Source: Acytostelium subglobosum LB1 (lineage: Eukaryota; Evosea; Eumycetozoa; Acytosteliales; Acytosteliaceae). Taken from it: a stretch of 64,000 bases of DNA. Shown here in pieces: positions 1,362 through 59,330 of this stretch. The notes beneath the pieces are model-generated. The model did not search any database. It was not told the origin of the DNA and saw nothing but the letters and a program-made list of their open reading frames with translations. Position 1 is the first letter of the stretch; each line of letters opens with the position of its first letter. The stretch is taken from NCBI RefSeq assembly GCF_000787575.1, contig NW_012236524.1, forward strand, positions 807,665 to 871,664, read 5' to 3'. Made by a program: the position numbers and the translations under genes.

Positions 1362-4300
1362 ATGATCAATCATATTATTTCTCTCGCAACAGTAGTGATT
1401 ATCCTTAATCTCTTTGTTGGTAAGTATTTATGATTAAATTATGATCAAACCAAGAATGATATATACTAACTAATTGACACCCAATTATTAGTTGCCTGTT
1501 TATCAGCATCACATCCTTATGTTATATTGGATACCAAGGCAGCTGGGACTTTAACCAAAGATGGTTGTTTGGTTGATGTTTTAATTAAGATTGATACAAC
1601 ACGTTATATTCTCACTATAAATGGAGAACCAATTAGTGACAACTTAAGGATATTGGACTATGAGCTCAACATCCAGATTGGAAGAAGCGAAGATAACAGA
1701 GTACCATTCGGTTCACAACTAGTGACAGGAAACATCACTGTAGTCGGCAGTGCCACCACCCAAGACTGGAACGCGACATTCTCATGTCCATGTAAGTCAT
1801 TCAATCAAATATTGGAATTACTCCAAACGATCAAATATGACTAACTTGTGAATGATAGTCCCTCCTTCAACATTAGAGGTATTATCCAAGACTCCCTTGG
1901 TATCAAATAGTGTCAACCCATTCCAGTATAGTCTGTACACAGCTTTGAATGATGTGTCGTCATACTTTACTTTGAATACTCCTGTTTCAGGACCAAGTAA
2001 TCGAGTTGGTTGTTCTGCCTTTGGATACATATGCCAGATGTTTGAGTATTATAACACCAACGCAACTTCAACCAATGGTTATACCACATATATGTTATCA
2101 TTGTTTCCAGATCAAGTAGGTTATAACTACAGTCAAGATATCACTGTATTATTGGTATCATCAGTTCAAACATCAGCATCAATCGTCTACACATCACCTT
2201 ATGCAGGACAGTTCAAGTCCAATGTCCGTGTCAACTCAGTTGTAGCCTATCCCTCAGAGTCATACAAACAGTTGGACTATACTAATATGAAGGTAGACTT
2301 CTTTGTCAACTCGACCGGACTCAGCTACATAGTCAACAACCTTACAGAATGTAACACTGTCGTCAAGAGAGTACTCGGATCACCAAGCACCTCAGTCCTA
2401 TCCTACTACTTTCATATGATATACCGTCCGGTGGAGATTGAAGTCCAACAAGTCAACTCCAGTCTCAAGACCACTTCTTCATTTTCTTGGTCCAATGGTA
2501 AGTACACCCTCACTGGAATCATTCCAATCAATCGATCACTCACCATACACTCAATCAAACAGATAAGTTCCCTGATGTTACCACAGTTCCTTTGAATATC
2601 CAGTTCAAGGAGACGGTTTCAAGTTTTGTGACTACTGTTATTGATGCTTCGTTGAACACTTTCAAGTCTCATCAGATATCGGGAGTAAATGAGATTCAGA
2701 AGACATACGTCTCGTATCCATTCGGCTTCAAGTCCAACTCCAACCCATCATCACTCACCTTTGAAGCTGTATTCTCCATGAATGAGTACCGCCTTCCCAA
2801 CACCTCAATCTCGATCTACAGACCTCAAGTTGACTATGCATCCTTGGAAACCGCTTATGGCAACACCACCAGCATCGGTATGTTACTTCGCCCTCCCTTC
2901 CCTCACTTGACTACTCTAGACTAACTCTTGCCCTCGCCCATACATATATATATCAGATGATCTACCTCCAAGTTTGATCAATCTAAACTTTGTAGCGATT
3001 GACCCATTCACATACTTGGTACAAGCAGAGGTGAATGATTCAATGAGTAGAGTAGCAACTTTGATGTTGTATTATGGCAGAGAAACAATTGATACGATAT
3101 TATTGACATCTGCCGATGTTGTTGGTGGTGGTGGAGATAACAACAATCATGTATTCTGGGAGTCCATTGTAACTATCAACAGTAGGAGCACCAACTATAT
3201 ACCAAGACCACGTGAAGTCCATCTATTTGACTATACAGGCAATCAGATGGCTTCATTAAGCAACTTTGGCCGAGTATACTCCTTGATCTACAATGCCAAC
3301 TTCAAGACCATTAACAGTCCAGGTTGTAAGTACCTCCCTCCATCAATCACTCACTCACTCAATCACTCAATCACTAACTCACTCAATCAATCAAACGAAT
3401 AGTACCCATCACTATTGACATGATCACTACATTCAAGTTTGATAAGTATGTGATGGATGTATCGAGTGGATCAGTGAACAACAGGTTGTTATTCAATATG
3501 TCAAAGATTGTGTATAGTTGGAAACCAGAGTTGGTCTTTGGTGATGATTTACAGAATCCAATGTATCGTGCTCGTGGTAAATATGACTACAGTCTTCAGT
3601 TGTATGTCATACCATTCACAGTGCCAGCCAGGACGTTCACAACCTCCATGAACTACTTCATTGATTGTCGACCAGAGCACCTCGACATTGCCTTCTTCAA
3701 TCTCAAATTCCCCAACACCTCCACAGTCCAGATCATCTCAACATGTATGTTATGCCCTCATTCAATCAATCATTCAATCAATCAATGACTAACACTTCAC
3801 ATGATCAAAGATGGTGATGAACTTCCACCGATGATCACCAAGATATTGGCTTTCCCAAACAAGACAGTTGATATATCAAAGGGTACTTCTACTTTGATTG
3901 GATGGGACCTGACAATTGAGGATGTACCAAATGGATTCAGCAAGGGAGTGTTCAACATCAGTAGTAATACCGATGGTCAATACCGAGTGATCACAATTGG
4001 TAATGAACAATTAGTTAATGGAGTCTATCAACTTAGATTCAACGTATCAATGTGGTTGAGAACACAAACATTCACCATCCAAGACATCCTACTCATTGAC
4101 ACTTCAAACAACACTGGTCGATACCACAAAGACTACTTTGTTGGCCCTGACAACCTCATGTCCTCCATCAACCCACTTGGAAAGGTGATGGGATCTCCAG
4201 AGCTAAACCTCACAATCATCAGCAGTATGTACCCAATCACTCAACCAATCAATCACCTATTAACCATCTCACATTCTATCTCTCAGACACTGGAGCAGTG

Positions 4301-6059
4301 ACAGCACCTCAAGTAGTTAGTGTTCAGTTGTCTAGGACTAGTGTGGATGTTGGATCAAGTGATAGGTCAGTCGGTATAACGTTCACAGTTGATTGTGGAA
4401 CCTATGCCTATGCATTCGATCATTCGCCAATGGTATACTTCACATCATCATTCGATCAGATTACTGGATGTACTGCTACATTATTTTCGGATGATCAAGT
4501 CAATGTGATCATATTCCAAGCCAATTGTACACTGCCATATTCATTTGGATGGCCATCACGTGTAGCCTATCTCTCCATTCATGGACTTATGAATATTGCC
4601 GGATACATGTCTGGATTCTCGAACCAAGCACTTCCCAATAACAACGTCACAAGATTGGACATCTCATTCTCACAAACAAGTAAGTACTAATCACTCAATG
4701 CACACATGGAACCATTCCACAAACTTATTCAATCAATCATATTTAGCACCCATCATTGAGAGATATTTGGTTTCACCTGGATCAGTGACTATCATTGGAA
4801 GGAACTTTGGTCTTGCACCTGGTTTGGTCAAAGGTGCACTGGACTTTGGTAAATCAGTTGGTATGCCATTGGGCATATTGCCATCAATCCAATCAGGTTC
4901 AATGTTGATCATTGAAAGTGGGTACATCATGGCCAAGCCATTCAATATCACAATCAAAAACCTTGGTATTTCATCAAACATGATCCAAGTCAACGACCTA
5001 CTTCCAACTAATAGCAGTGGTGGCAATGGAGGTGGTAGCAGTGGCAGTGGCGATACCAATGGTAACTCTACACAGCCAACGGTTACGTGTCCAGGCTCCC
5101 CACCTTGCTCCAATAATGGCGTGTGTAGTCCTACTCAGGGATGTCAATGTGTGAGTGGATGGTATGGCGAGGACTGTCTTTCAAAGGTGACCGACTCTGT
5201 GCCAACATATCAAGATGATCAACCAGAGACAACTATTGTCGACAACAAGACATCTACCATCTCGACGATCGATGTTGTCAAATTGAAAGAGTTTGACAAT
5301 GTTGGAAACATGGTCGATCAGATGTATTTGATTGATTGGAAGCAGGAACCAATGAGTGGCGCAACGAACAATCTGAGCAAATCATACTCAATCTCATCAA
5401 GGGGTGGTGGACTGGTCGTTGTCAATGTCCAGTGGTTTGATCAGGACACCGATATCCTCTTTGCTGGCGACACCATCCACATGAAGAAGTCAACGTTGAA
5501 GTACACAATCAACTTGTCCAACTACACATTCAAATCAACGTTGAACACACTTCAGGTCATAATGCGTGTGGCCATCAGTGGACCTGACAGCAACACTTGC
5601 ACACAACAAAGTGTTGGCAACATTGACGGCGAGGACAACAGTCTATATTGGATGCGTCTGAGGGTCAATGACGTCAGCTTGTACGGACACTTCATCCAGC
5701 GTGCATTAGTTGATAATAGGACACATATTATATCAAATGTATTGTTGGATTCATCTGAGCAACAATCAAACAATCAGGAACAGGCAACAATGATAGGTAT
5801 CAATGTACCTCATTTTGATCATCAAGTTACACTGGACCCCGATTTTCAATTATTGATCGATACTGATGGCAATGGCAGTGGTACATGTGGATCAAGATCA
5901 AAGTCATTATCAACCAATGCTTTGATAGGTATCATTGTTGGCGTGGCAATAATAACAACTGCCATAGTTGTAGCTATTGTGATGTGGAGACTTAAGAAAC
6001 ATAAAGATATCAGACACGAGAAACAGATGCAAATCAAACTTCAAAAGTTGACATCATAA
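1362..6059 (+). CDS. comC-like EGF/IPT single-pass membrane protein
   Basis: Nine exons: 1362-1419, 1492-1791, 1859-2497, 2563-2877, 2957-3325, 3403-3744, 3811-4224, 4287-4679, 4747-6059. They sum to 4143 nt (1380 aa) and every splice is phase 1. The first exon encodes a signal peptide (MINHIISLATVVIILNLFVV). A series of beta-sandwich ectodomains follows, then an IPT/TIG-like domain (about residues 944-1022), a six-Cys EGF module (about 1058-1088), the ComC-type C-terminal domain, a TM helix (about 1335-1357) and a short basic tail. Neighbouring genes of the same build show tandem duplication. Relatives act at the cell surface in developmental cell-cell recognition; the partner here is unknown. 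Introns 2, 3 and 8 carry the TGGAA/TTCCA-type dyad. Confidence 0.88.
1812..1826 (+). repeat. intronic dyad TTGGA-ATTAC-TCCAA
   Basis: Five-base arms with a five-base spacer in intron 2 (1792-1858) of the comC-like gene. It is a variant of the recurrent TGGAA-NNN-TTCCA dyad. Confidence 0.5.
2514..2526 (+). repeat. intronic dyad TGGAATCATTCCA
   Basis: Perfect arms, in intron 3 (2498-2562) of the comC-like gene, 16 nt from the donor and followed by CAATC repeats. Confidence 0.75.
4707..4719 (+). repeat. intronic dyad TGGAACCATTCCA
   Basis: Perfect arms with CCA centre, in intron 8 (4680-4746) of the comC-like gene. Confidence 0.7.
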
Positions 6060-6327
6060 GTATCGCCAGTCTGGCATAACACAATAAACTTCTTATTATT
6101 AAAGTAATCAATGATTCTCTACTTAAGGATTGAAGGACCATCTAATTCCATTATGACCTTGGACAATGCCCAGCCAGTGGACATATGAGTGAGCATGGCT
6201 GCCGTCTGAGACAAGTTCCATGTTTGATCCAAACTTTCTGGAGTGAGTGTGATTGAGTGATTGAATGAGTTAAGTACATACCATTACATGATTGAGAGCT
6301 AGTCGCTGGTGCTGCAGGATGATTGTG

Positions 6328-7167
6328 TTATTTGGCCTTTGGACTCTTGAGTTGCTTCAATGACCATCTATCTCTGGGGGATACGATGTCTAAGACTTGA
6401 TGAAATGGTGATGCAAAGTATGAGTGGATTGAGTAGAATGTTGTTTGTTTTGATAGATGGCAGAAACGAAACATGTCGATTCGAACGAGCTTATAGAGGG
6501 CATATATCTCCTCAAAGTCCTGCCATCTCCTCTTTGAATGTGTTCTCTCGATATGATTCATGAATTGCTGCATATGATTAAACTCTTGAATTCTATGACT
6601 TGCTATTGATTGGATATAGCATTTGAGGAATATGTAGGGCATGTTGATGACATACTGTCCATTATTGTCATCTTCTAATCTTATTATGGATTTCCTTTCC
6701 TCTTTCTCAAAGGTAGTGTTGGCTCCTTCTGCAGGAACTTGTTGGTCCAGGTAGATATGAGTGTTCGTGAGACACAGTGCAATCAGTACATGTGCATGGA
6801 GTGGCGGTGTGAATAGATTGCTGTAGGAAGTTCCTTTGATCTTGCCAACGAATTGATTGACAGCAGCAGTGAAGGTGGTGGATTCATGATTGAGGCTTGG
6901 ATAGAAGTCAAAGATGAACAATTGCAACAGTCTTGGCCACCCACCCAGTGAGTCGAGGAGAAGTTGAATGAGTGGTGGGACATGAGTTATACCGAGTAGG
7001 GTACTAACAATACTCTTAGTATCATCCTTGCTCAGAGGAGGAAGTGGAATGACCTTGGCCGCATGTGAGGCGTCTTTAGTGATGACCTCATTGAGTTGGA
7101 GTCGGGGCGTTCCAGCATGGATAACATTGAGGAATACATCACCGACATTGTGGATAAGGACATGTTG
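6328..7167 (-). pseudogene. crinkler-like (CRN) gene remnant
   Basis: On the minus strand an open frame starts next to 7167 and reads about 280 residues without an initiating ATG, ending at 6328. It includes FLNVIHAGTPRLQLNEVIT, a PLPPLSKDD segment and LGGWPRLLQL, which resemble the end of the P-loop ATPase part of crinkler-type proteins (compare the LPPL and GGhPR-L patterns); a variable C-terminal region follows. The part that should hold the Walker motifs is absent. At its 5' side it abuts a decayed comC-like 3' end on the other strand, so it looks like a truncated piece joined by rearrangement. The crinkler call is from memory of family patterns and is moderate; that it is a fragment is clearer. 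Confidence 0.5.
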
Positions 7168-7300
7168 ATCAAGACAAAGTCATTATCATTTGATTTGTAT
7201 CATTGTTGTTTGAGTTGCGAGTCAGCAAAAGTTGTAACTAATATTACAGATATAAGAAACAGATGTATATCAAACATCGAAAGTTAACATCATAAGTATG
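7167..7300 (+). pseudogene. decayed second copy of a comC-like 3' end
   Basis: This stretch aligns in order with 5891-6065, the end of the upstream comC-like gene: first GATCAAGA-CAAAGTCATTATCA, then the TM-coding region in diverged form, then the tail around AGAAACAGATG, AAAGTTAACATC and the stop plus AAGTAT. It has lost coding capacity. It lies at the 3' border of the crinkler-like remnant and upstream of the next complete comC-like gene, as expected if tandem duplication of comC-like genes was followed by loss of most of one copy. Confidence 0.7.
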
Positions 7301-7712: not shown

Positions 7713-10700
7713 ATGTCTAGATTGATAATAATAATATTATTTATTACCATATTTGGTAATTTGATCAGTAGGTCCAAAAAACGAAGTCCTTAGAAGTTGC
7801 CCCACTCACACACTCACACTTAAATCAGATCAAACACAATCATTTCGAGTATTGGATACTAGGGCCATTGGACAGTACACAAGTACAGGATGTAATGTTG
7901 AAGTGATCATTCAAGTTGATACAATAAGTCCAATTACAAAGATAAATGGATATTCATCACTTGTGACTAAAGATCATCTTGTATTCGATGTAAAAAATAA
8001 CCTACAAACCATACGTGTCACCAGTCTACCGCCAATGACATTCGGTAACACTATCACTGGTAACATAACCGACAGTACTGATACAACCGTACCTTGGACC
8101 ATATCATACTCATGTCCATGTAAGTTGACTCAATCACTCGCTCACTCGCTCACTAGCTCACCTTGTGATCACTCGATTGGTCATGCGATCCAACTTGGAA
8201 TCATTCCAATCACTCAATCATTCACTTTGATCACTCCACTCATTCACTTTGATCACTCGTTTGATCATTCGATCCAATCTTGGAATCATTCCAATCACTC
8301 GATCAATCACTAACAATCACTACTCAATCAATCAATCAATCAATCAATCAAACATACTTAGCAACATCAACTAAGCTGGCTGTTGTGTCAAGTACACCGT
8401 TGGTGTCGAACAATGTCAATCCATTCCAGACAGTGTTGTTGGGAATGTTCAAGGTTGTTTATGATGTTACCTCGTTCGTAACATTGAATGTACCACAGAC
8501 TGGCCCCTCAACAGTAGTGACATGCTATGCCAATGGCTACTCATGTGATCTGAGGAAGCATTTCACTCAATCAAACAACCCATCCATAACTACATATCGC
8601 GTGTATGTAGTACCGAGCACTTTCGTAAAGATAGACTTCACCAAGGTCATCACATTGATGTTCACCGCGGCCCCATTCGGATCGATTACCCTGGACTTTG
8701 CGTCGCCGTTCGCAAATGCCACCGAGAGCGCTTTGAACATGGTGGTCTATCCCGATCCCCTGACATACTCGCAAGTCGACTATATGTATCAAAAGGTGGA
8801 CATCTTTGTAAACTCAACAGGTCAAGGACTATCATACTTTATATCCAACATCACAGCAACCAACACCATTATCAAACGTGTACTCGGCTCACCAAGTACA
8901 TCAATCCTATCCTACAACTACCAAATGATGTCACATGGCAATGGACCCTCCGACATCATTGGGTTCACCCAAATCGACTCCACTCCCAACGCATTATCTA
9001 CATATCAATGGACCAATGGTATGAATGACCTTGCCTTCGCCCTAACCCTCGCCCTAACCCTCGCCCTCACCCTCATTAGGAAATCATCAAATACCATCTG
9101 GAAGTAAGATTGGTCTGGTGCTGATGGATAGACAGAACTTGTTCGTGTCAATGTTGACGACGATGACAATGGAGACATTCTTGGGACACTCAATCAATGC
9201 ATTGAATCAGCAGCATAGGAAGGCAATTGAATATCCATTTGGATTCATCTCCAACGTCGATCCCAAATCACCATCATTCGAAGCAGTATTTGCCATGAGT
9301 GAGTACCGACTACCCTACTCTCACATTGGCATCACCGGCTTTGAGTTTGACAATGGCATCAACAGTACTATTTTCCCCAACACCACCGAGATTGGTATGT
9401 ATCCTCATCATTCATTCAATCAATCAATCGAATGATCACTCACTAATATTCAATCAAACCATCAGACTTATACGCACCAACATTGATCAATATCACTTTT
9501 GTACCTATCAATATGATGGAGTACTTGGTACAGGTGGAGGTGGAGGATGTGACGAGTGGATTTGGTTATTTGGTATTGGAGTATACTACACAGGATAAGT
9601 TAACATTGTCTCCTGCGGACATGGTTGGCGGTGATATCCATCATGCATACTTGGCCAAGATCATAACAATCCCATGGCAGAGTTCCAACAATGCACCAGC
9701 ACCCAACACAATCTACATCTATGACAATGCTGGAAACGAATGCTCACTTCCATTCATTGGCTCAGGAGTGATCTACAATCCACAGCTCAAAAGCACGGCC
9801 GACAGTCCAGGATGTAAGTAATTACATCCAATCACACTGGAATCATTTCAAAGACTAACCCATCACTCTATCAAACTTAGTATCAATCACTTTGGCGGAT
9901 ATTACATCATTCACATTTGAAAAGACTGTTATGGATGTATCGAGTGCGTCGATGAATAATACATTGACATTCACAACATCAAAGTTGATCAATAATTGGA
10001 TACCTATATTGGTGTTTGGTGATGATCTCTCCAATCCTTATTATAGAGCACGTGGTCATTATGACTATGCTACCAGTAGCTACATCATACCATTCACAGT
10101 TCCAGCCAGGACATTCACCACCACCATGAAGTACTACCTCGAGTCACGTCCAGAGTTCATCGACGTTGCACTCTTCAACTCCAAGTTCCCCTCCACCTCA
10201 TCAGTCCAGATCATCTCAACTTGTAAGTTCATCCATGTACTTTGATTGATCATAATACTAATCAATCACTTTTGAATGAATATAGATGGCGATGAACTTC
10301 CACCAATGATCACAAAGGTTGTGGCAGTGCCTTCGAAGGATGTTGTGATTGATTCAGTGGCGGATACGACGGATGTGGGATGGGACTTGACTATTGAGGA
10401 CCAACCAAATGGTTTCAGTTATGGTAGTGTCAACATTAGTAATTCATTGGATGGTCAATTGATATCGATCAACTTTACAAACAATGACGTCGAAGCAGCC
10501 ACTGGTATATACAGACTACGTATCAAAGTATCCAAATTCCAACGTGTACATAGTATCACAATTGAAGACATAATGTTGGTTGACACTATGAACAACGTTG
10601 GACGATACGCTCGTGACCCAAATGGACTTGATCTCATGACCGCCATCAGTCCCCTTGCCAAAGTCCTCGGATCACCCGAGCTCAACATCACCCTCACCAA

Positions 10701-12631
10701 CTCAGGTATGTCCCAACCCTCACTCAATCACTCCTGGAATAATCCCTAACATACCCCTCACATACCATCACTCAATCAATCAATCATAGAGCAAGAGTTG
10801 TCACCACCACAGTTGTTGTCAATGTTCGTGTCAAGACGTGATGTGGATGTTGGTAGCAATGATAGATGGGTACAGGTGAACTTGTCAGTGTCTGATACCA
10901 TATCTGGATATGACTTGGGTCATTTGCCAACAGTATACTTCACATCAACATATGATGAAGTAGTTGGTTATCAAGCAGAGTTTGTCAGTGCCAATGCAAA
11001 TGGATCAATAGTCAACTTTACAGTCAACTGTCTACTCCCCTACGGATTCGGATCACAAGCAAAGATAGCATACCTCTCCATCTATGGGTTGATGAACAAA
11101 GCACGCGACCTTGGTGGATACTCAAACAAGGCACTAAGCAATCATCCCAATGCCTACATCAACTTCCTCAACATTCAATTCACTCAAACAAGTAAGTACT
11201 CACTTATATTCAATCAATCACTCGATGGAACCATCTCACTCAATCAATCAAACATTTTTAGCACCTATTATTGAGAAATACTTGGTAACACCTGGATCAT
11301 TGACCATTATTGGAAGGAACTTTGGAATGAATCCTGGACAGGTCAATGGTGTATTGGGCTTTGCTGATGTTGGAAACGTAACAAAGTCACCATCATTCCA
11401 TTCTGGTATAATGTTGATCATCAACACTCCATCAATCAAGTTGGATTCATCATTCAGTGCAACAATCAACAACAACAATATATATTCCAACACAATATAT
11501 ATCAATGCAGACCCAACAAACAATGGCAACGGCAACGGCAATGGCAACAAGACACAGCCGACTATCACATGTCCTGGCACCCCAGTATGTTTCAATCGAG
11601 GATCATGTTCCCCAACTGTTGGATGCATCTGTGACCCAGGATGGTACGGTAATGACTGCACTTCAAGTAAGTACAACTCTTTTATTCAATCAATCAATCA
11701 ATCAACTCACGCAATCAAACGTATAGCTGTAACTGGATCCGACCCAACATACGATGGCGAGAAGCCAATGACATCGATTGTTGATGGCAATACAACAGTT
11801 GTGTCAACGATCAATGTGGTCAAGTTAAAGGAGTTTGATAATGCTGGGAATATGGTTGATCAGATGGATTTGATTGATTGGACATTGATCAATGAGACTG
11901 TAAATGGCAAGATATACTCTGTCGACACAAGAGGTGATGCCAAGATGAAGGTGGAGATCAAATGGTTCGACCAGGACACCGACATTCTCTTTGCCGGAGA
12001 CACACTACACATGAAGAAGTCCACACTCAAGTACACGATCAGCATGTCCAACTACCCATTCAAATCAAAGTTGAACATACTACAAGTCATAATGAGAGCA
12101 TCGATCAATAGTTCAAACAGCAACTCATGTTCAACCAAGCGTGTTGGCAACATTGATGGCAATGGCAATGATGATGGTTTATACTGGATGCGACTCAAGA
12201 TCAATGGTGTCAGTCTCTACGCACATTTCATCCAGCGTGCATTAGTTGATGGAAGACCACATGTTATATCAAATGCGTTGTTGGACAAATCTGAACAAGA
12301 GGCATCGATCAACAACATCAACAACAATCAGGCACAGGCAACAATTGTAGCAATCAATGTTCCACATTTTGATAGAGATGTCATACTTGATCCAGATTTC
12401 CAATTATTATTGGATGTTGATAAAGTTAGTGGAGATGACAATGATGCAATATGTTCATCCAAGACAAAGTCATTGTCCACTATTGCAATGATTGGAATTA
12501 TAGTTGGAGTGGTGGTAATTGTTCTAGCAATTGTTGCCACAATCATATTACTTCGCAGGAAGAATTTAAGGATGATCAGGGACCAAAAGAGGATTCAACA
12601 AAGACTCCAAAAACTTCAACAACACCAATAA
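7713..12631 (+). CDS. comC-like EGF/IPT single-pass membrane protein
   Basis: Ten exons: 7713-7755, 7829-8119, 8362-9018, 9080-9394, 9466-9813, 9881-10222, 10286-10705, 10790-11191, 11262-11666, 11727-12631. They sum to 4128 nt (1375 aa), and all splices are phase 1 at the same places as in the gene at 1362. A short hydrophobic signal peptide (MSRLIIIILFITIF) is followed by the same ectodomain series, an IPT-like domain, an EGF module (about residues 1042-1073), the ComC-type C-terminal domain, a TM span (about 1328-1350) and a basic tail. The last intron (11667-11726) is 60 nt, in phase and stop-free, so its removal is inferred from splice signals only; it has no counterpart in the first gene. 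Intron 2 is unusually long and holds two dyads. Confidence 0.88.
8196..8208 (+). repeat. intronic dyad TGGAATCATTCCA (copy 1)
   Basis: Perfect arms, extended to TTGGAATCATTCCAA, in the 242-nt intron. Confidence 0.75.
8281..8293 (+). repeat. intronic dyad TGGAATCATTCCA (copy 2)
   Basis: Perfect arms, again extended to TTGGAATCATTCCAA, 85 nt after copy 1 in the same intron. Confidence 0.75.
9034..9073 (+). repeat. telomere-like CCCTAACCCTCG repeat in intron
   Basis: The intron 9019-9079 is mostly tandem CCCTAACCCTCG / CCCTCACCCTC units. Confidence 0.8.
9838..9850 (+). repeat. intronic dyad TGGAATCATTTCA
   Basis: One change from the consensus; in RNA the changed base would still allow a G-U pair. 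Intron 9814-9880. Confidence 0.55.
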
Positions 12632-15654: not shown

Positions 15655-15752
15655 GTTTGAATGATTGATCGAGTGTGCTCGTTTGATTGATAGATTGAAA
15701 GGGTCACGAGTGATTGATTATATAATTCTTGGAAGTTGGTGATCCACGAATG

Positions 15753-16588: not shown

Positions 16589-18263
16589 TTACTGCATTAT
16601 TATTTCTTGAATCCTAGACTTGGTCACGAACCCATATGGATTAGCCCATTTATCATAAGGATAACTCTTGGAAGATGGACAACAAAAGAATAATTGATCG
16701 TTGATTCTTATCAATTTGAACATACCAGTGACCTCCAGAACCATAACCGAACTCGGCAGTTCTTGAAGTATGTGAACAGAATGTCTTGTCAATACTGTCT
16801 TGAGTTTGATAAGTGAGGGTGGTAGTACATTGATATCCAGTTGTTGTTTATAATCGACCAATTCCAACTTTGTGACTGATGGTGGTATGTCACCTGGCTT
16901 GATATTCCTTGCATTGGATAACTTTAGACTGGTGATAGATGACGGTAGGCAACCTGGCATTTCATTGGCAAAGTCAGAGCCACTGACCCTCAACTTCTCA
17001 ACACCAAATGGAACTGTAAGGTGACTTAAAGGAGCGGTGTGCATCTGGTAGACGCTCCAGAAAATGACACAGCTCTTGAGTGATGATGACATTTGGCTAA
17101 TATCGAGTGAAGTGATATCATCACCTTCATTCAAAGTAAGTCGAGTGAGTTGGGGAAATCTTGATGCGGTGACATCGTTCACCCTACATGTCTCATTAAC
17201 ATTGTCTACAAACAACTCTTTTAAGTTGGGATATTGATGACTGACAGGGATATAGGATTGGACAATGAGATATTCCAATGAAGGACAGTCCAAAGATAGG
17301 TTGATGAATGATCGTGGCAAACTGATTTTTTGGAGTCCATTAGGTAGATTGACCAGATCATGATGATAAATATCATTCTGTGCTTCGATATCCAATCTAG
17401 TGAGGGATGATGGTAGTACACCATTTACTGATTGATTGAAGAACTTGCCAAATGTAATTGTAGTGAGAGTAGTTGGGAATGTGTTTGGATAAATGATTTG
17501 ATTGAACTCATTGTTGAATGATAACTCTCTAAGTCTGTTTGGCAATGATCCAGGTGTGATTGATCCATTCCAAAGTGATACAGATATAAGATTCAATAAA
17601 GTAAGACTGTCTGGAAGTGGCAATAATTTTTTAGGATCCAATTCACCTCTGTCCAAAAATGTAAGTTGTAGTCCTCTTAGAGTATTTGGTAGAGATATTC
17701 GTTGAATATTGTTGAAATCAGTGCTTCGACCAACATATACCAGTAGTGAGAGAGGTAGATGTTGCATTGAGAATATATGATAATCCAGAATCAAATTGAC
17801 CTCCACCGACCTCTTTACCAAATCATCCAACAATAACTTAGTCTCATTCCAATTGGGATGCAAATTTGACAATGGATGTGTAGTTTGTTTATGTAATGGC
17901 TTCACTTTTTGAAAGAAACATACCTCTCTAAGGCATGGTAAATTCAATTGTTCTTTCAGTTTGTCTAAATTAGTGAGGAGTTGATTGAGAGTTAGACAGG
18001 AAGTATTCCACGATAAAAATTGTAATATATGTACCTAATAGTAATGGATGATTAAGTGAATAATACTCTTCCAATTTGATTATTAAGAATGATTTTGATC
18101 GACTATCAATCGACATTGACCATTTAATAATGTCTGTATATGATTTTAGATTATCACATTTACTCAAGATATTCAATCCAACAAAGTTAAGATATTTGGA
18201 TCTATTTTCAAACAATCTTTTCGATACCATAGATAAGAATATCCTATCAACTACATCTTCCAA
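16589..18263 (-). CDS. FNIP-repeat (LRR-like) protein
   Basis: Two exons: 18035 to about 18263 and 16589-17964, with a 70-nt intron (17965-18034, phase 1). The large exon is made of about 22-residue FNIP/LRR-type units with LP-SLT-L and FG--FNQ patterns (for example LPSSLTRLDIE, FGKFFNQSV, LPSSITSLKLS), typical of the large dictyostelid FNIP family, which probably serves protein binding. The N-terminal exon is helical and resembles the F-box-like heads of some members. The start is unresolved: the frame is open back to about 18302 without an ATG, the first in-frame ATG is at 18230, and an ATG at about 18316 is out of frame. Either the gene starts at 18230, an upstream exon is missed, or the sequence has an error. 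Confidence 0.75.
17998..18010 (-). repeat. intronic dyad TGGAATACTTCCT
   Basis: Read on the minus strand in the intron of the FNIP gene; one change at the outermost base of the right arm. Confidence 0.5.
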
Positions 18264-20655: not shown

Positions 20656-23600
20656 ATGGATTACTTGACACACTTGACTCATAATGACAGGGGCATAAAG
20701 TTCTCTGATATATTCAACACGACGAAATTTCAATGGACTCAATTGACACGTGATCATTATTCAGTGTTGGCAAGAAAGTTGAGGAAATTAAGTAATAGAA
20801 AGGATTATGATAGTATTAAACATATCCTATCACGTTTGGATACACTTGGAAATGGTCTACTGCACACCATCATCCTCTCATCACAAATGTACGCCTCTGT
20901 CCACGAGGCCCTGCAGCCCATCTTCCAAATGTTTCCAGATTTGCTCAATATCAAGAATGAAGAAGAGGAGGTATGTTGTTCAAAGTTGGTCCGTCGGGTG
21001 ACAGTGCAGTGAGTGATCGGGTCATGGAACTATCCCACTCACTCATTCAATCAATCAATCAATCAATCAAAAATAGACACCATTACATGTAGCAACACTA
21101 AATGGAAATAGACAGATGTTGGATGTATTGATTGGTCTTGGTGCGGATGGATCGATGGTCGACAGGAGGAATCTGACTGCACTTGATATTGCGACGTGGC
21201 TAAAGTCAAATGAGATGACAAAGTCGTTGGGAACACTAAAGACATCAAAGTTGACGGTGGTCGGCCCAGATGATCCCAACAGAGAATCACATGTGCCCAT
21301 CTACCAATGGGGCCAGATGCTCACCTCATCACTTACGCTCAACTACGTGTCGGCACCGACCAGTCTGTTGTTCAATCACGTCGAACACTCACCTACCACC
21401 GTCAAGTTTGGCAACAACTTTGCCATCATGCTTACGGACACAGGTCACCTTTACAGCTGGGGACTCAGCAGCTACGGCAAGCTTGGCCATCGCTCCAAGA
21501 AGGACCTGTCCATCCCCACACCCATCAGCGCGCTAAAGAACAAACAGATCGTGGCCATTGCCTGTGGAAAGGACCACACGCTGGCACTTGACGAGATTGG
21601 AATCGTGCACGCCTGGGGTAACGGCTCGGGCGGACGACTTGGAGTTGGAAACACCGAGGCAGGCTTCATCGACACACCAACAATCATCCCATTCTTTGGC
21701 GACAAGAGTGTCACTGCCATCAGCTGTGGACAGGACTTCTCGATGGCCTTGTGCTCGGGCGGACAGCTCTACTCATGGGGAAAGGGCACGATGGGCAACT
21801 TGGGATACATGGGCGAGAATGGATTCGACTTCCAGGTGACGCCCAAGCTCGTTGAGAACCTGCCGCCCATCTCTCAGGTGTCATGTGGAAACTGGCATAC
21901 GATCGTCCTGTCAGAGGAGGGCGAAGTCTACACGTTTGGATCAAACAAAGATGGCAGACTGGGCGTGCCCATCAAGACTTGTGCCAGCTCGTCGACACCC
22001 CAACTGGTCAAGTTTGACAAGAAGATCAAGAAGATTGGCGCTGGCTCCAACTTCAACGCCGTGCTCACAGACACGTCAAACTTCATCTATACATGGGGCT
22101 GCAATGCCAACAGCCAGCTGGGTGTGCTACTGGAGGGCCACGACAAGTTCACAGCGACTCCACAGTTGGTGCAGGCACTACTGCCCTACCCGGTCAGTTC
22201 GATCGAGGTTGGCTACGAGCACGTCATGGTGCTCACAGACAATGGCGAGGTCATCACCTTTGGTAACAACTCCAACTCACAGTGTGGAGAGGGCGAGGCC
22301 ATCAAGGAGCTGTGTAACTTCACCAAGATCAGGACACCGGCCAACTCCACCGTGTTCAAGATCGCAGCTGGAGGCAACTCCTCACTCATCTCATTGACCA
22401 GCGGTCACAGTCTGTTTGGAACAGAGTTGGCATCTTTGTTGGGCGACACCAGCTTTGCAGACCTGCGTCTAACCACCAGCGGCAGTCAATCATCCACCGA
22501 ATATGTTGAGTGCCATCGTGTGATTGTGGCCAGTCGTGTACCCAAGCTTCATCAGCTGCTGATGGACGAGCACAAAAGTCCCAACGCCAAGAACAAGATC
22601 AACGTAACAATGACGTACAGCGTGCAAGCCAGCACTGTGGACAACATCACCTACATCGACTTCCCAAACACATCGATCGAGTCGCTCAGACTACTCACCA
22701 AGTTCAACTACACGGACCATGCACACCTGTCCGTCTCCATTGTCGAGGAGCTGGGCATGATGGCCACGGGTCTGGGACTCGAGCGTCTGGCGTATCTCTG
22801 CAGCATTGGTCGCACCCGCTCCCTCGAGACCATGCCCTCGTCCAGTCTCATTGGCGACCTGAACAAGTTGAACGATCAATCATTCGCCAAGCACTACTAC
22901 GACGTCAAGTTCAACATACATGAGCAGGGCGAAGAGGTGGCGACAGTAGTCCAATCATTCAAGGCAATGCTCTGTCTGCGCTCGCCATACTTTAGAATGA
23001 TGTTGAAGGGACAGTTTGTGGAGACGAGCATGGAGTCAATCGATATGTACGAGATGTCAGTGGATGGCTTCAAGAGTCTGCTGCATTACTTCTACAGCAA
23101 TGAGGTGCCGATCGATCCCAACAACTGTGTGGAGTTGGTCAAGCTGGCCGACTTCCATCAGCTGGGTCGCGCCAAGGAGTTGTGCGCCGCCGTGCTCAGG
23201 ACCTACATTGACAACGACACCTTGTTGAACGTCTACAAGTTCTCTCTACAGTACAATCTAAGAGTGTTAACAGTACTATGTGAATCAAAGATAATCAAGT
23301 TACCCAGTGATGATATCAAAGTAGATACACTACCAAACTTTGATGAACTATCAGAAGAAGTCAGACAACAAGTTCTAAAGATGGTCGATGGATCATCATC
23401 AAGAAGTAGTAACAACAAGACAACAACTAGTACAACAACAAGCAGTACAACAACAACAACAACTTCAACAACTAGTACAAGTGATAATAATAATAATAAT
23501 GTAGATAGTAGGTTTAGGATGGGAGGTCGTGGCGATGATGTACCAACAACTACAGGAGATAGGAAGGTACCTTCTGTGGAGTATGATATAGATGATCACA

Positions 23601-24196: not shown

Positions 24197-27100
24197 ATGA
24201 TCAAGACTCCGTCTCCATCAGTTTTTATTCAGTTGATCATTATTATCTATTTGACAACAAGTATGTATATATAAATAAATAAATAAATGTCCTAACAAAA
24301 TAACTAACTAACCTTTATATGTTATAACATAAGACAATGGAGTATTATCACAAGTACAATTGATGAGGCATGTTGGATCATATGTTGAAGGTGGAACAGG
24401 TTGTAAACTGGCTGTGGCAATGTCTATTCCAACAATTAGTTCAACACCACTTCTTATAACATCAGCTGGAAAGATTTTAATATCTGACTTCAACATCTAT
24501 GATGGTTCAACAGGCTCTTCAACATTCTACATCGATACCCTTACAATTGGCTCCAACTTCATCACTGGCGAGGCCACAGACGGCTTCAACAACATTCATA
24601 AATGGAACATAACTTATAATTGCAACAGTATGTATCATCATTCATTGATTGATTGGGTGAATGAGTGACCGATCAATACTGACCACACTGGAATCATTCC
24701 ATCCACACACAAACTAGATATTTCAACACCATTGAATGTTACATTGAATAGTGGAATGACATTCAATATGGTTAATCCATTCATGTATACTACATATCCT
24801 AATCCTCCCGAACCAATAAGGATGTCAAATGACTTTTATGTCCTTTATGTCAAGATTGAAGAGTCTGGATTAGATCCACTTAATGGTTATACTGTCTCAA
24901 CATTGGGTTATGATGCTTTGATCAAGTTGACGACACCTCATCCAACTCATCCAACTTATCAAATTGGATTGAATCCATCACCAACTACAACCCCTATCAA
25001 CAATGACTACACTCAATCTATCAATCTATTGATCAAAGATAGATTGAATCGAACTGCCACCATCACAATACCATCATATGTCCTACTCAATCAATCAACA
25101 TCATCGTTCATCCTTGAACCAGGTTTGTCGACACAGTTCCCCAACAATCCCCGCCCATACTCTCATTACAGTATCCGGATGTCATCGACCAAGCCAACAC
25201 TGCTGACACTCTATCCCCACGATGGCACCTATTCGTTCAAGTTCATGAAAGGTGGCCCTCAGCACTACTTCACCGAGAGCTGGATGGTGGCCTACACTCA
25301 GACCGGCTCGCCACACACACTCTACGAGCTCAACAAGAGGTTGACCAACAAGACTAGTTGGACATACAGCTATACAAGTCGCCAGCCCAATGCCTCGGCA
25401 ATGGCGTTCACCAAGGGTGTACTCCCCAACACTCCAACGGGCTCAGTGGTGCACAGCTTCAAAGGATCACTCAACTATCTGTCCAACTCGTGTGTGATGA
25501 ACTCTGACAACCATGGTCTATCAATCCCATGGCCATACCCATTTGGTCTTGCCTATCGTCCACTTCTCCCAGGCCACGTATCCACCACAACCTTTGCCCT
25601 TAACCCATTACACAAGGACTACCTCTTTAACCTCAACTGCAACTGGGAGTCAATGGACAATTCATCATTCGCTCCGCCCACAGGTATGTATTATCTTGCC
25701 CTTGATTCAATGTTCATCTTGACTGACATACCTATTCAAGTGGACAAGATACCTCCCGACTTCACAAGCATGATCNTTTACACCAATCTCTCAGTTCTCA
25801 TATCACTTGTCGATGCAGATTAGCGATGCTGGTAGTGGATTCGATACGATCACATTCGAGTACACTTATCTACATTCGTTGAATAGGAGGTATAGGTCAT
25901 TCACTCTGACACCTTCTAATCTAGTACAAGGTGATATACATTATGGTGTCTATGAGACAATTATAACATTCAATGATGTAGCCGTTGGTCTGCCTGACGA
26001 AGCCAGAGCATATGATGGTGCAGGCAACAGTAGATCAATTCAAAAGTTATCCTTCAACGACTATTACATCAACAACAGAATGCAAGATATAACATTCAAC
26101 TCTCCAATAAGTAAGTGTTCCAGGGTTCATGAACCCTCGACCCTCAACCCTCGACCCTCAACCCTCGACCCTCAACCCTCGACCCTAACCCTCGACCCTA
26201 ACCCTCAACCCTCACTCAACCAATCAATCAATCCAAACCAGTATCATGTACATTGGATGATATTACAATGTTATACTTTGATTCATACTTGATGGATGTT
26301 GATAATGGTAGTGTTGGTAATACATTATATTTCAATACAAGTAATAATGATATCAATTGGAAACCAGAGTTCTATTATGGCAATGATGAAGAGAATCCAA
26401 ATTACAAGTCTGTTGGATATTATGATTGGTATAGAGGAATGTATGTCATACCATTCAATGTACCACGTAGGACAATGACCAAAGAGTTACAATACTATAT
26501 TGTTGCCCGGCCACAATACATTGATCACCAACAACTCAAACTAAAGTTTGGATCAGCCACCGCCTCAGTCAACATAGTCTCAACATGTAAGTACCCCTTG
26601 TCTGCCACCTCCCATCAATCTCTAACCATTGCACCGGATATTAGATGGCGATGAACTACCACCTCTTTGTCTTGGACTTGGCGCATACCCTTCTCCAATG
26701 GTCTCATTGAATGTCACAGATAATATTGTGATTGGTTGGATATTGACTATTGATGATGATCCAAATGGATTCTTGGATGGCTATCTCAATGTGATTAGTG
26801 ATGTAGATGCTCAACCAAGACGACTCAATTTGACATTATATAATACAACAACAACACCATCTGTAAAGAGATATATTGGATCATTCAATTTAACTGGCAA
26901 GGCCAGAAGTCAGACATTCACCATCCTTGACATCGTACTCAGAGACAACAGTTACAACATTGCCAAGTACTCATCAGAGACCTCAATATCAGCCACAATC
27001 AATCCAATTGGTTCCCTCATGGTAAGTGGAGGTGCTCAACTCTCGATCACCACAACCGCAACCTTAAGTAAGTGCCCTCGAATGGCTCCATCCCAACCCA

Positions 27101-47167: not shown

Positions 47168-48787
47168 ATGTTACAGACGACAGTACGCAAATACATAGTT
47201 GCAACTGCTACAGGTCAACTGCTGCGGCACAACATCAAAGCTACACCACTGATTGAAGGAAAGCAACAACAACAGCAACATCATCAACATGTACATTTAA
47301 ATAAACTATGGCAAGACGACTTGCCATTGTCCATCTTACTCAACTACTCCAAACCAACGACAACATATCTATTCAACATCATCAATCAACCGAGTCATCA
47401 CCATTATTGTACAAAGACAGCGACCTCAAGCACGGTGGCGCCACCATCAATTCAAGGTATGTTGTCAACATGAAGTTCATTCAATCGTGAACAACAATAG
47501 CTAACTATGAATGTGATGTGTAGACCAACAGATACGAGAGAATGAAGTGCGAAGGATAGTTGATCTGTTGATCAATGGCAGACGACATAAGGAGTGCGTG
47601 GCAAAGATGTTGAATGAACGACATTTGGCTGAGCAGGCACAGGCAGGTCAGTTGGATCATTCAATGATGCATCTGCTCAAACAGTATAATAGGACAAAGG
47701 ATGAGGTGGCACAGGTCGAGCAACTACAACAGAGTCTGGCAGACTACATCGATCTTCAGACGATGGCCAAAAGTGAGAATGATGCATCGATGCTGGCCGA
47801 GGCCGCTGGTATCCTTGACGAACTATATGCGCAGTGTCAGGAGCTAGAGTTCAAGTCATTGATGTCAGGTCAGAGCGACCATGAGAGTTGCTACCTTGAG
47901 ATCCACGCCGGTGCTGGAGGTACAGACAGCATGGATTGGGCAGAGATGCTACATGGCATGTACTCAAAGTGGGCCCTTCGCAAGGGTTACCAGAGTAAGT
48001 ATTGATTGAGCGAGAGAGTAAGACTGGCTGGAATCATTCCACTTACTCAAACTCATACATTATTGTCACATCACATGATCAGTGACCTTCATTGATGAAT
48101 CAAGAGGAGAATATGGATACAAGAGAGTTGTGGTCAAGATTGATGGAGAGTATGCACATGGGTGGTGTCGATCAGAGTCTGGAATTCACAAGTTGATCAG
48201 GATATCACCATTCGATTCATCAGTAAGTTGGAATAATTCCAGGTCTCACTCAATCAATCAATCAATCAAACTCACACTCTCTCAATCAAACCCGAAAATA
48301 GGGAAAGAGACATACATCATTCGCATCTGTATTGGTGTATCCAGTGGCTGATGATAGTATTGTGATTGATATACAGCCAAAGGACTTGGTGATTGAGACG
48401 ATGAAGTCAAGTGGACCGGGTGGACAACATGTTAACAAGACAGAGAGTGCTGTGAGGATCACTCACACACCATCTGGAATAATGGTGACAGTGTCAGAAC
48501 AACGATCACAACATCAGAACAAGAGTATTGCAATGGAATTGATCAAGGCCAAGTTGATGGCGATTGAAGTGCGAAAGAAGGAACAACAAGAGCAGAGCAT
48601 GAGATCGGAGCTCGGTGTCAATGGCTGGGCCAGCGACAAGATCGTGCGTACCTACACCGTTCATCCACAATGTCGAGTCAAAGACCAGCGCACCAATCAA
48701 GAGACCATGAACTTAGATGCCATCATGCAAGGCGAAGAAGAGCTAGACATAATGATCAAAGCAGCACTATCTCAGACATCAAGTTAA
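47168..48787 (+). CDS. organellar peptide-chain release factor 2 (RF2 type)
   Basis: Four exons: 47168-47456, 47524-47994, 48083-48222, 48302-48787 (phases 1, 1, 0), 461 aa. The N-terminus is basic and low in acidic residues, as in a mitochondrial targeting peptide. A helical domain, the codon-recognition motif SPF (residues 295-297, the RF2 type that reads UGA and UAA) and the catalytic GGQ (340-342) with [20 protein letters not shown] follow. So it terminates translation in mitochondria and implies that UGA is used as a stop there. An upstream in-frame ATG at 47087 would add 27 residues. No in-frame stop or bacterial-type programmed frameshift is seen. Confidence 0.9.
48029..48041 (+). repeat. 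intronic dyad TGGAATCATTCCA
   Basis: Perfect arms, in intron 2 (47995-48082) of the RF2 gene. Confidence 0.75.
48229..48241 (+). repeat. intronic dyad TGGAATAATTCCA
   Basis: Perfect arms (six-base arms with a single-base centre), 6 nt from the donor in intron 3 of the RF2 gene. Confidence 0.75.
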
Positions 48788-52060: not shown

Positions 52061-55000
52061 ATGAGCTTCGTAGTTGGTGATACTTCCAAAACATTCACTT
52101 CTAGAAGAGTGGGTGGTCTAACTACATCAAGGTCCAGACTGCCAGTCAGTCAGATTCAATTTGAAGGTCAATCATCCCTTCAACTAAAGACAGCACGTAG
52201 GTCATCACTTACCAGCCCAACAACTTTTGCAAACTCATCAATGGTCCATATGCTGACTCACTTGGAATGATTCCAATCACTCTTAAACACACTACCAAAA
52301 TTAGAACAAAAATTATATTCAATACCATCAAACAATGCGTCAAGATATACAGAGAAACTAAAGGATAGGACAACAGCTGGTGAGGCGGTATTCATGGCGC
52401 CAGATGGTACTTTCTACGATATCCACTATTCTCCAGCACTCAAACATAAGGCTGGATCAGTCAACACAACATCCACAACAACAACAACCACAACTACCAA
52501 CTCAAACAACACCAACAACATCAACAACACAACATCTGAAGAGGATGATGACACTGAACTATCATTCGCCCAACAACTCACACATCTACACAACTCAATT
52601 CCCCAACTGGACGAGTTTGACAACTTCTTTGATTATGAACAGGCATATTTGAGATGGAGATACGCCATCGAGACAATATTGGGAGACATCCGTTTACCTG
52701 AATTATCAGGTCGCTCTTATTATCGTCCACGTGTTACCGATTATACTAGAGGTGGACGTGATACCTCTTCATCAGACTTTAGACCAAGTTCATCATCCTT
52801 CTCACAGGAAGCCGACTCTGATGATAAGAGTGATCCACTAAACAGTGAGATCGAGGATGATATCAATGCCATGAGGGAGTCGGTCACTGATTCATTGGAC
52901 TCTGCCATCATCCGAGACTGGGAGAGCAACTCTGACCCCTGGGACTCGCACCTCTACCCTCACGAGCCACAGCCAGATGATTATAATACATATGAAGGTA
53001 TGTTAGCCCCTAGTTCGACCATTGCCATGACCCAAGTCTAACCATTCACACAAATATACAGAGTATAGCGAAGCCCTTTCGAGATGGGCATCAGTTTGTT
53101 CACAACTTCCATTCTTTCCACCACATGCATCACAGTTGAAGGACTTGATTCCAATCCAGTCGATCACAGATGCCTCCAAGAAGATTGATGACATGTCTAC
53201 TGGCCCAGGCAACAACCCAAACAATACATTAAGTCACGAAGCCTCAAACACACAAGCTCAACAAATCGCCGTCAAGTCTGGCGTCAAGGAACTATTGTTC
53301 CTGGATGTATGTGCACAACTAACCCAGGACATCATCGAATATTTACTAACATCTACCACTTGCCCACGATCAATCATAGCACTCCATACTTTCCAAACAA
53401 AGTATGGCTACAACTACAACAATACAATCATCATCATCATCACAAGAGTTTAGCAAGGATGCCATTCATGCTAAACTCAGTGAGACTGCAAAGAAGAATA
53501 TTAGAACGGTGATAAGCGATATTAATTCAAGATTGTTCAATAGTGGAAGTACAAGTTCGAGTGGTGGCTCGACCAAGTTGTTCAATCATCGCCAGGTGAC
53601 CCAGCTGCCAAAGATCCACGGCTCATTCCCATTGCCCATGATGTCCCTCCAGAAGACCTTCAAGGACTTTCGCAACACCCACCTTCGACGCACTGACCTG
53701 ACAGCAGAGCAATTGAAGCGTTGCCAAGACTCGCCACCCGTGGTCGCCGGTCAGACCGTCCAGTTCAACGTGCCTGGCCACGACATCTATCTGGACCATG
53801 CCAAGTTGTCCGACCCTAACTACATTGCCCAACAACAACTTGCTCTGCGCACCTTCATATCGGCAGACCGATTTAATCACCTCTACTCTTGGTATCACCC
53901 CATGGTGTCTGAATGGATGCACCAAAGACACAAGGATGACATCGATATGATCATCACTTCCAATCAGCGAGGGGCGTCTCGCGAGTCCCTGAGTCTGGAC
54001 AGCATCACGGATATCCTTAACGTAGGCATGTACGTGGACAAGTTCTCAGACCTGCTCGACTCGACATTTAGCGAGGACTTTGATGGCGTCAAGTCATACG
54101 CGTCGGTCATGTCCAAGGGCATATCATCCGATAACATTGGACATCTGTTGCGCCAGTTGGACGAGACCAAGAACCCTCTGTTTCACGCCAAGATGGCCTA
54201 CCTCATCATGAACCTGTTCAGCGGCAATCAGGGATCATCCATCCTATCGACACTTGTCGCCAACAAAGATGTCCGCTCACTATCATTGCTGGCCTACGCC
54301 TTTGACTATGTTAGTCCATTGCCAGTTGACATGTATCCATGGCGTGACGAACACTATTCCCTCGTCCGTACCATCATTGGTGACTCCATGGAGACCATCA
54401 TGAAGCTCACCTTTTGTTACTACTACCTATGTATCATTGGAAAGGTACTGGATGTCCATGTCCATCTATATTATTCCAAGTCCACAGTCAGCCAGACTAA
54501 AGTTGTATGTATCCCAAATTCCCCAGTCCATCCTGGAATGATCCCATACTCATCACCCACCCTCCCATTCTTCCAATCAATCAGTCTATCGCACATACTA
54601 TATCAAGCATGTTGCAACAGAACACTCCAAATGTGTTGGACCGCTTGTTCATTGGAATCAAGCATCGAAGCAACACAGTATCCTCTTTCTGCCTGTTTAT
54701 CTTGTTGCAACTGATGAGTAATCAGGAGGGCGTAGCTATCCACAACAGTCTAAAGGCCGACAACTGCTTCCTTTATGAGCGCATCAAGCTTGTTTGTCAA
54801 TCAAAGATGAAGCATGTCCAGTTTGCTGCACGTCGTCTATTCGCACTGCTATGCAAGGTTCCATGGCAAGAGTACATATTCAAGGAATACAACAAGGATC
54901 CAGAGTCTGCCGTGCGCGACCTGATTGGCACGGAGGAGCTTCGACCTAGCAGTCTGATGCTTGAGCTACTTCTCGAGTTCTTCCAGGCGGCCACTCACTC

Positions 55001-57707: not shown

Positions 57708-59330
57708 TTAGTTATTTCTTGGCTTCTTGAATGGTCTCTTGGTTCGTCTGTTGGCACCTATTCCACTCTTGAAACTCTCGTCTGGCTCTTCACCGACCTC
57801 CTTTCTGTACCACTCCTCATCATCATCGTCATCATCATTGGCCTCATTGGCAAAGCGTTTCAGTTGCTTATCCTTCTTCTTCTTCATCTTCTCATCAGAT
57901 GCCTTCTTCTTTGCCTCAACATTCTTATTCTGCTCATCAATCCTACGCTGCTTCTCAATCATCTCATCCTGCTTCTTGACATGCAATTCATCAATCTCTC
58001 TCTCTGACTTGGAGACTATTCATTCGTTTGATTTGATTGAGTTAGTATGTTATGTGATTGATTCGATCGAATGAGTTGAAGAACTTACCATATTTATGAT
58101 AAAGGATGCCACCCTTGAACAGGTCATCCTCGACTTTGACGAGATCGAGGGACATTCTTGGACCAATCTCCTCAAGCTTGATAGCCTTTTGATTGGACTG
58201 GATTGTCTTCTTACGCTTGGTGTCCAGGAACTTGGAGTCAATGTCGATCTTGCCATCGTTGGCATCCTCATAGTCACTCTCACTCTCTCCAGTGCCACCC
58301 AAAATATAATCACTAATATCTCCCATATTCGATACATCTGGCATTCTTGATTGAATCACTCTCTTTACACTCTTACTGATTCCAGTCTCTGCCACCCTAA
58401 AGTTGATTGAGGTTAGTGATTGATTGATTGATTGATTGAGGTGATCATGATCAAACATACTTGATCTTGTAATGTCTAAACTCGACCATGTTGGTCTCCT
58501 TGTCAAAGTTGAACAACACGATTCTCTTGCACTTGGACAATTGAAGCTAAAGTGGGATAGTTCCAGGATTGAAGTGTGAGTGATTGTTTGATTACTTTGA
58601 TCAATCACATGATTGATACTACATACTGTTAGGACATTGATGGATGGGAATAGGTTCTGCAAGAGTGTGGACATCATCTCGATGTGTGGAGAGCCTTTGG
58701 AGAAGTTGTTGAGAACGACGAGTGGTGCGGTCATGTACTCGGCAGTGCCAAGGGACGATGGTCTGAGCTTGGCCTTGTTGACGTCGGCCATCAAAGAGTA
58801 CTCGGCGATCTTGAAGGTGATGGTGGGGCCCTTGGGCGACTTGCCCACGGACATGTAGCTGCCAATGTCAGTGTTGGAGAAGGTGACCAAGTGAGTGACA
58901 CCATAGATGCTGGCCACATTGACAAAGTCCTTTGTCGTGTTGGTTGGCATCTCTTTCAGTTTTGCCGCTGTGTTTGGTTCCATCACCTTACGGAAATCAA
59001 CCACCAACTGTTTGATCATCTTATTACAATCTCCACGTCTAAAGACAAATGACTTGCTAACTCCTGTCATATCATCATCCTCTTGATCTGGATGTGTATC
59101 ATTCCTCGTCTTCTTCTGTTGTTTCTTATTAGCTCTCTTTTGTTGTAGTTTTTGATGTTTCTATAATTGATTGATTGATTGAATGAGTATGATTGATTGA
59201 ATGAGTATGATTGGTTGAATGATTGAGTGAGTGATGGACTTACCTTGCCAGCAGCAGCACCACCTGTACCACCTGTACTATATGACTTCTTCTTGCCACC
59301 GAATCCTTTCTTGTTATCAGTCTTTCCCAT
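57708..59330 (-). CDS. ppan: PPAN/Ssf1 Brix-domain ribosome-biogenesis protein
   Basis: Five exons: 59244-59330, 58627-59160, 58461-58546, 58089-58396, 57708-58015 (phases 0, 0, 2, 1), 440 aa. A basic N-terminus precedes the Brix domain (about residues 60-300), with [17 protein letters not shown], the YEYSLM-like segment, [10 protein letters not shown] and [19 protein letters not shown] Lys/Glu-rich coiled coil, an Asp run and a basic C-terminus follow. Peter Pan/Ssf1 acts in the nucleolus in maturation of the 27S rRNA of the large ribosomal subunit. Intron 2 holds a TGGAA dyad on the coding strand. Confidence 0.92.
58553..58565 (-). repeat. intronic dyad TGGAACTATCCCA
   Basis: Read on the minus strand, in PPAN intron 2 (58547-58626). 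Identical to the 13-mer in the IBTK-like gene intron (21025). Confidence 0.55.

Follow-up and report, generated by a model that had tools for sequence, protein, structure and literature searches.

In compact genomes, descriptions of how introns are recognized usually invoke the two splice sites, the branch site, intron length and base composition. According to the accessible part of PMC3033335, the information deficit that remains after the five standard features is smallest, at about 7.3%, in Dictyostelium discoideum among 61 species; this relative of the organism studied here thus has no obvious need of an additional signal. The available text of PMC2483917 lists actaat at 18.66% and wctaay at 31.89% for D. 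discoideum, so that about 32% of its introns use wctaay; taking CTAAC or CTAAY as the branch site in the introns analyzed below thus fits a relative.

Human intronic enhancers, which offset weak polypyrimidine tracts, provide a precedent for the mode of action proposed here. As presented in the excerpted portion of PMC2481429, they resemble our motif in that they are short intronic words and lie upstream of the 3' splice site at no single fixed position; they are also concentrated in introns with a weak core splicing signal, for which our data on the motif are suggestive. However, those enhancers are short, degenerate, triplet-type words that were tested in cells and are tied to weak polypyrimidine tracts, whereas we describe a near-fixed 13-mer that is a candidate enhancer and is tentatively linked to weak branch sites. 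Introners, according to the accessible parts of the reports on Micromonas (PMC3879977) and Amoebophrya (PMC7789003), also place repeated intron sequence into unrelated genes, and inverted repeats are reported for those of Amoebophrya. Yet introners are whole similar introns whose inverted repeats join the intron ends, whereas 13 internal bases are shared here. The U2-type branch site (CTAAC/CTAAY) is, like our motif, intronic and sense-oriented, and the center of the motif resembles its YNAY; the motif is far longer, however, and its distance from the intron end varies and is generally larger.

A preliminary description of a genomic stretch from Acytostelium subglobosum LB1 had drawn attention to a dyad, TGGAA-NNN-TTCCA, in the introns of genes with nothing else in common, and knew of no earlier account of it. 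Our literature search likewise found no description of the motif; literal strings turned up only in papers with unrelated titles, and the portions of PMC4334915 and PMC5282741 available to us contain no intron motif.

Materials and Methods

Our analysis covers one window from one species, a 64-kb stretch of contig NW_012236524.1 of A. subglobosum LB1. Intron ends were placed by eye and then checked for GT/AG and for the reading frame; 53 of the 54 introns passed this check directly, and the intron of the HEM4-like gene was moved by one base. The curated set comprises 54 introns with 4,430 bases, in agreement with the earlier estimate of about 54 introns and about 4.4 kb. Automatic gene finding was set aside, as one run over-predicted introns (187) and another under-predicted them (35); in the latter, 11 of the 15 motif-bearing introns had ends identical to ours. 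Frameshifts are left in three gene models, those of comC-like gene 3, a large unknown gene and a G-alpha gene. A single N is present where the frame shifts in each of the first two (25776 and 55586, respectively), and the G-alpha gene contains a further frameshift at about 39590-39600; the N-linked and the G-alpha frameshifts are probably assembly errors.

Host genes were named through Pfam, for which 10 exons, one per gene, were tested. Matches to ComC_SSD and to FNIP repeats were found among the genes of the window, the host of the motif copies at 48029 and 48229 is an RF-1-domain gene, and that of the copy at 58553 is a Brix-domain gene. The copy at 17998 has a FNIP-repeat gene as its host and that at 21025 an RCC1/BTB gene, while exon 53380-54504 of the gene for a large protein, with the copies at 52263 and 54534, matched no Pfam family.

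The motif was scanned on both strands with a regular expression that permits A or C at position 8. Because the consensus was drawn from these very sites, the count that this expression returns is by itself not independent evidence; evidence independent of it comes from the count of intact words, a census of TGGAA and a mismatch scan.

Results and Discussion

Restriction of the Motif to Introns

With both strands scanned, the consensus was found at 16 sites in 15 of the 54 introns, distributed over eight genes. Nine of these sites lie on the plus strand in the comC-like genes. Gene 1 carries TGGAATTACTCCA at 1813..1825 (intron 2, 1792-1858), TGGAATCATTCCA at 2514..2526 (intron 3, 2498-2562) and TGGAACCATTCCA at 4707..4719 (intron 8, 4680-4746). 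Gene 2 carries two copies of TGGAATCATTCCA at 8196..8208 and 8281..8293 in its intron 2 (8120-8361), TGGAATCATTTCA at 9838..9850 (intron 5, 9814-9880), TGGAATAATCCCT at 10735..10747 (intron 7, 10706-10789), which overlaps a CTAAC, and TGGAACCATCTCA at 11226..11238 (intron 8, 11192-11261). Since the copies at 8196 and 8281 share one intron and, as judged by eye, the second lies within a local duplication, these two are not independent. Gene 3 contributes TGGAATCATTCCA at 24689..24701 (intron 2, 24628-24717).

The other plus-strand sites are TGGAACTATCCCA at 21025..21037 in the RCC1/BTB (IBTK-like) gene (intron 20971-21076), TGGAATCATTCCA at 48029..48041 and TGGAATAATTCCA at 48229..48241 in introns 2 (47995-48082) and 3 (48223-48301) of the RF2-like gene, the latter adjoining the GTAAGT donor, and TGGAATGATTCCA at 52263..52275 and TGGAATGATCCCA at 54534..54546 in introns 1 (52197-52304) and 4 (54505-54584) of the large protein gene. 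On the minus strand, TGGAATACTTCCT occupies 17998..18010 in the FNIP-repeat gene (intron 17965-18034), and TGGAACTATCCCA occupies 58553..58565 in intron 2 (58547-58626) of the PPAN-like (Brix) gene, six bases from the intron end. The eight intact dyads listed in the preliminary description, all intronic, were recovered at their stated coordinates and within the curated introns, and every listed variant is present, although the one given at 1812 begins at 1813. That list does fill 13 introns, as had been counted, but it misses the sites at 10735 and 11226. The claim of unrelated host genes on both strands holds; two of the eight genes are on the minus strand.

The intact word TGGAANNNTTCCA occurs eight times in the window, each time in an intron, compared with a mean of 0.15 (maximum 1) in the dinucleotide-shuffled whole window and means of 0.01, 0.007 and 0.038 in introns shuffled with their 2-, 3- and 4-mer counts kept; the excess over chance proposed earlier is therefore borne out by the trinucleotide control. 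For the consensus, 1000 shuffles of each kind gave means of 0.05, 0.09 and 0.26 (2-, 3- and 4-mers kept) and a maximum of 3. When the comC paralogues are left aside, seven sites remain, whereas 2000 Markov resamples of third order gave a mean of 0.09 and never more than 2; three intact copies remain where 0.015 are expected. Among intronic 5-base dyads with spacers of 0-8 bases, TGGAA with a spacer of 3 ranks first with eight copies and the next distinct dyad reaches two; the GGAAT dyad with spacer 1 and the TTGGA dyad with spacer 5 are the same sites. All 16 sense-strand TGGAA words in introns are within the motif. TGGAA itself is about as frequent in 4-mer intron shuffles (mean 14.6) as observed, so that what is fixed is the context of TGGAA.

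Consistent with the intron-only occurrence claimed before, intact copies are absent outside introns and the consensus is absent on either strand from 42,965 exon and 16,605 intergenic bases, where second-order Markov resamples lead one to expect 0.66 and 0.27 sites, respectively. With one mismatch allowed, a single match in the whole window falls outside introns, at 9675, and it is without the TGGAA arm; the 34 matches found there with two mismatches (29 exonic, 5 intergenic) represent background. The shuffled-window, shuffled-intron and Markov controls speak against chance composition. The motif is a real, intron-restricted element that is common to unrelated genes on both strands.

Direction and Asymmetry of the Motif

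Alignment of the 16 sites yields the directional consensus TGGAA-Y-N-M-YYY-C-W, in which M is A or C, mostly A. Positions 1-5 and position 12 are invariant, position 6 is T in 12 sites and C in four, and position 7 is unconstrained. Position 8 is A and position 9 is T in 15 sites each, position 10 is T in 11 and C in five, and positions 11 and 13 are C and A, respectively, in 14 sites each. Hence, the view that the arms are constant around a variable center is correct for the 5' arm; the 3' arm varies, and position 7 is the only free position of the center.

A scan with up to two mismatches found 17 sites lying wholly within introns, nine of them imperfect. Eight of these nine are changed in the 3' arm only and none in the 5' arm only, while the remaining one, at 27078, has changes in both arms and is probably a chance match. 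If the site were symmetric, a split of eight to none would have a two-sided p of 0.008, an arithmetic value that is unadjusted for the G-poverty of sense introns (12% G vs. 26% C), which somewhat favors changes in the 3' arm. Nine sites match in the sense orientation only, none in the antisense orientation only, and seven both ways, with the reservation that sense sites had been used to derive the consensus. In the two genes on the minus strand, the motif is likewise in the sense orientation. The orientation of the motif follows transcription, and this direction together with the intergenic absence points to recognition in RNA.

The same evidence bears on the proposal that a dimeric protein binds the motif as DNA within transcribed regions. 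Seven sites are indeed self-complementary over TGGAATNATTCCA; however, a symmetric dimer site should be altered in either arm and should also occur in promoters. Changes confined to one half (the eight against none above) and the absence of copies from the exons and from the 16.6 kb of intergenic DNA do not support this, and we consider such a protein site very unlikely.

An RNA hairpin, in which UGGAA and UUCCA would form a 5-bp stem with a 3-base loop that is bound by a stem-loop protein or shortens the intron, finds some backing in the eight perfect dyads among the 16 sites. When whole introns are folded, the stem attains a pair probability of about 0.7 or more at eight of the 16 sites, but it remains under 0.2 at the other eight, and the stem alone reaches -2.3 kcal/mol at best. 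The arms pair in register in 87.3% of cells, compared with at most 58.2% when slid against each other. This excess, however, stems from the eight perfect copies, and a shuffle control on pairing carries no information, as one of the two sides is constant. Against the hairpin stands that no pair is changed on both sides among the 11 distinct sequences: the 5' arm never compensates, and A faces C at pair 4-10 in four distinct sequences, representing five of the 16 sites. Moreover, a 3-base loop leaves the fixed A8 and Y6 unexplained. A hairpin is accordingly unlikely, and the earlier conclusion that the dyad rather than a word is kept is not supported, given the one-sided changes of the imperfect sites, the missing double changes and the improbable stem at half of the sites.

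Pairing in trans with a nuclear RNA would place G opposite positions 6, 9, 10 and 11 and would thereby tolerate either U or C. A hand recount of the 16 sites is in keeping with this idea, as 12 of the 15 departures from TGGAATNATTCCA exchange one pyrimidine for the other; such transitions are common anyway, though, and the window holds no match to an Rfam family at the gathering score that would speak for it. We regard this reading as improbable, too. We know of no partner RNA for the motif.

A relic of an introner or of another intron-spreading element, the latter also considered in the preliminary description, would fit a word that is common to unrelated genes and has some signal on its 3' side. 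Such a footprint predicts similar flanks, but the flank columns hold at most 0.77 bits, compared with 0.96-3.01 bits in the constrained motif columns. Summed over the 12 downstream bases, the information (5.46) exceeds that at random positions (1.94) and at positions following C[AT] (2.78; p = 0.0035); the 12 upstream bases are slightly above random positions (p about 0.03). The words found downstream resemble the CACTC/CAATC vocabulary common in these introns, and neutral decay would strike the 5' half as well, so that we attribute hardly any probability to a spreading element. Nor did the listed introns show any conspicuous terminal inverted repeats or target duplications at their ends. The related remark that CAATC repeats usually follow the motif proved weak, with CA[AC]TC present within 12 bases downstream of 7 of the 16 sites compared with a rate of 25% at positions drawn at random from motif-free introns.

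Position of the Motif and Branch Sites

Position 8 of the motif is separated from the donor by 14-169 bases and from the intron end by 11-158 (median 39.5, counted by hand), and the relative position within the intron does not depart from uniformity (KS p = 0.25). The motif thus occupies no fixed place, which is compatible with an enhancer, as enhancers may vary in place. In motif-free introns, the distance from the A of CTAAC to the end is 13-40 bases, with a median of 22, a distribution from which that of A8 differs (KS p = 2e-5); as a rule, the motif is therefore not itself the branch site.

YTRAY with its A at 10-45 bases from the intron end is present in 5 of 15 motif introns and in 33 of 39 others (p = 0.0005), CTAAY in 4 of 15 vs. 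27 of 39 (p = 0.006) and CTAAC in 4 of 15 vs. 24 of 39 (p = 0.033), all of these being post hoc values for a window of distances chosen after those of CTAAC were known. With no such window, or with 10-60 bases, six p values range from 0.065 to 0.26. At 10-45 bases, the YTRAY contrast is seen in the non-comC genes (1 of 7 vs. 18 of 22; p = 0.003), whereas the comC genes alone give 4 of 8 vs. 15 of 17 (p = 0.06; 0.06-0.09 across the comC-only tests). It is also seen in introns with at least two CAATC words (1 of 9 vs. 9 of 13; p = 0.011), compared with 4 of 6 vs. 24 of 26 in those with fewer than two (p = 0.15). Masking 13 bases at the motif positions in the other introns leaves an expected 9.7 of 15 with YTRAY, and the probability of five or fewer is 0.014. 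Collectively, these data are suggestive of motif introns often lacking a consensus branch site at the distance where one is usually found. Since YTRAY at 10-45 bases is lacking in 6 of the 39 motif-free introns as well, the motif is not obligatory where that site is missing.

Could the motif itself contain the missing branch site? Y6-N7-A8-Y9 resembles UNAY, A8 would be the branch nucleotide, A is found there in 15 of the 16 sites with Y6 and Y9 in all 16, and motif introns are short of the usual branch site. Yet the span of 11-158 bases between A8 and the intron end is at odds with the 13-40 bases of CTAAC, and A8 lies only 14 bases from the donor in one intron and 11 bases from the end in another. 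Furthermore, 8 of the 10 motif introns without YTRAY contain CTCA[ACT], the A of which lies 17-35 bases before the intron end, a count made without a control. There is, in our estimation, little likelihood that A8 serves as the branch nucleotide. CTCA also occurs within eight bases after the motif at 6 of the 16 sites (12.6% expected; p = 0.01, one of 18 uncorrected tests), and the same set of tests revealed no link to CTAA or to a general branch pattern just downstream.

The reading that we favor, albeit tentatively, is that the motif acts as an intronic splicing enhancer in the pre-mRNA and aids introns with a weak branch site. The 13-base element UGGAA-Y-N-A-Y-Y-Y-C-W would be read directionally by a putative sequence-specific RNA-binding factor, either a protein or a small RNA; in the small-RNA version, G would face the tolerated pyrimidines. 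Once bound, this factor may help the spliceosome on short introns that lack a consensus CTAAC-type branch site. The four of 15 motif introns that do have CTAAC at 10-45 bases are a counterpoint to this model. Present in more than a quarter of the introns, a 13-base signal that is nearly fixed in sequence and tied to no position would, if the enhancer reading is true, give intron recognition an unusually specific component. As the motif is short, frequent and easily mutated, its role is directly testable, and the factor could be identified by RNA pull-down.

The link to weak branch sites would equally suit a silencer or switch by which the motif renders such introns retainable under some condition. 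However, the hosts include genes of a housekeeping type (RF2-like, Brix), and the lengths of motif introns modulo 3 (8/4/3) are no different from those of the others (20/10/9). We therefore strongly doubt that splicing is repressed through the motif.

The comC-like genes offer a view of how the motif is distributed among paralogues, with intron homology judged by eye. Intron 2 carries the motif in all three genes, intron 8 in two, and introns 3, 5 and 7 in one paralogue each, a distribution that looks like turnover. Intron 3 has the motif in copy 1 and CTAAC in copy 2, and introns 7 and 8 have the motif in copy 2 and CTAAC in copy 3. Protein identity between comC-like genes 1 and 2 is 49.7%, and their fourfold sites agree at 47.4% compared with 26% at random. 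A rather doubtful, though conceivable, scheme would thus comprise two intron marks, either a CTAAC-type branch site or UGGAAYNAYYYCW with a dedicated factor as its stand-in, with introns switching between the two states.

Other Features of the Window

Repeats of CCCTCG, CCCTCA and CCCTAAC make up most of the introns 9019-9079 (+), 26111-26241 (+) and 62367-62457 (-); these introns are C-rich on the sense strand, and their host genes are unrelated or paralogous. A G-rich counterpart tract is situated in intergenic DNA at about 42820-42865. The last intron of comC-like gene 3 (27964-28079) contains several palindromic CACGTGATC/CATGTGAT words. A possible decayed protein gene is present between comC-like genes 1 and 2 at about 6120-7250 on the minus strand. 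Around the FNIP-repeat gene, at 15187-20245, there is a small cluster of four paralogous Cys-rich open reading frames, all short and alike, of which the first three are on the minus strand and the last on the plus strand.
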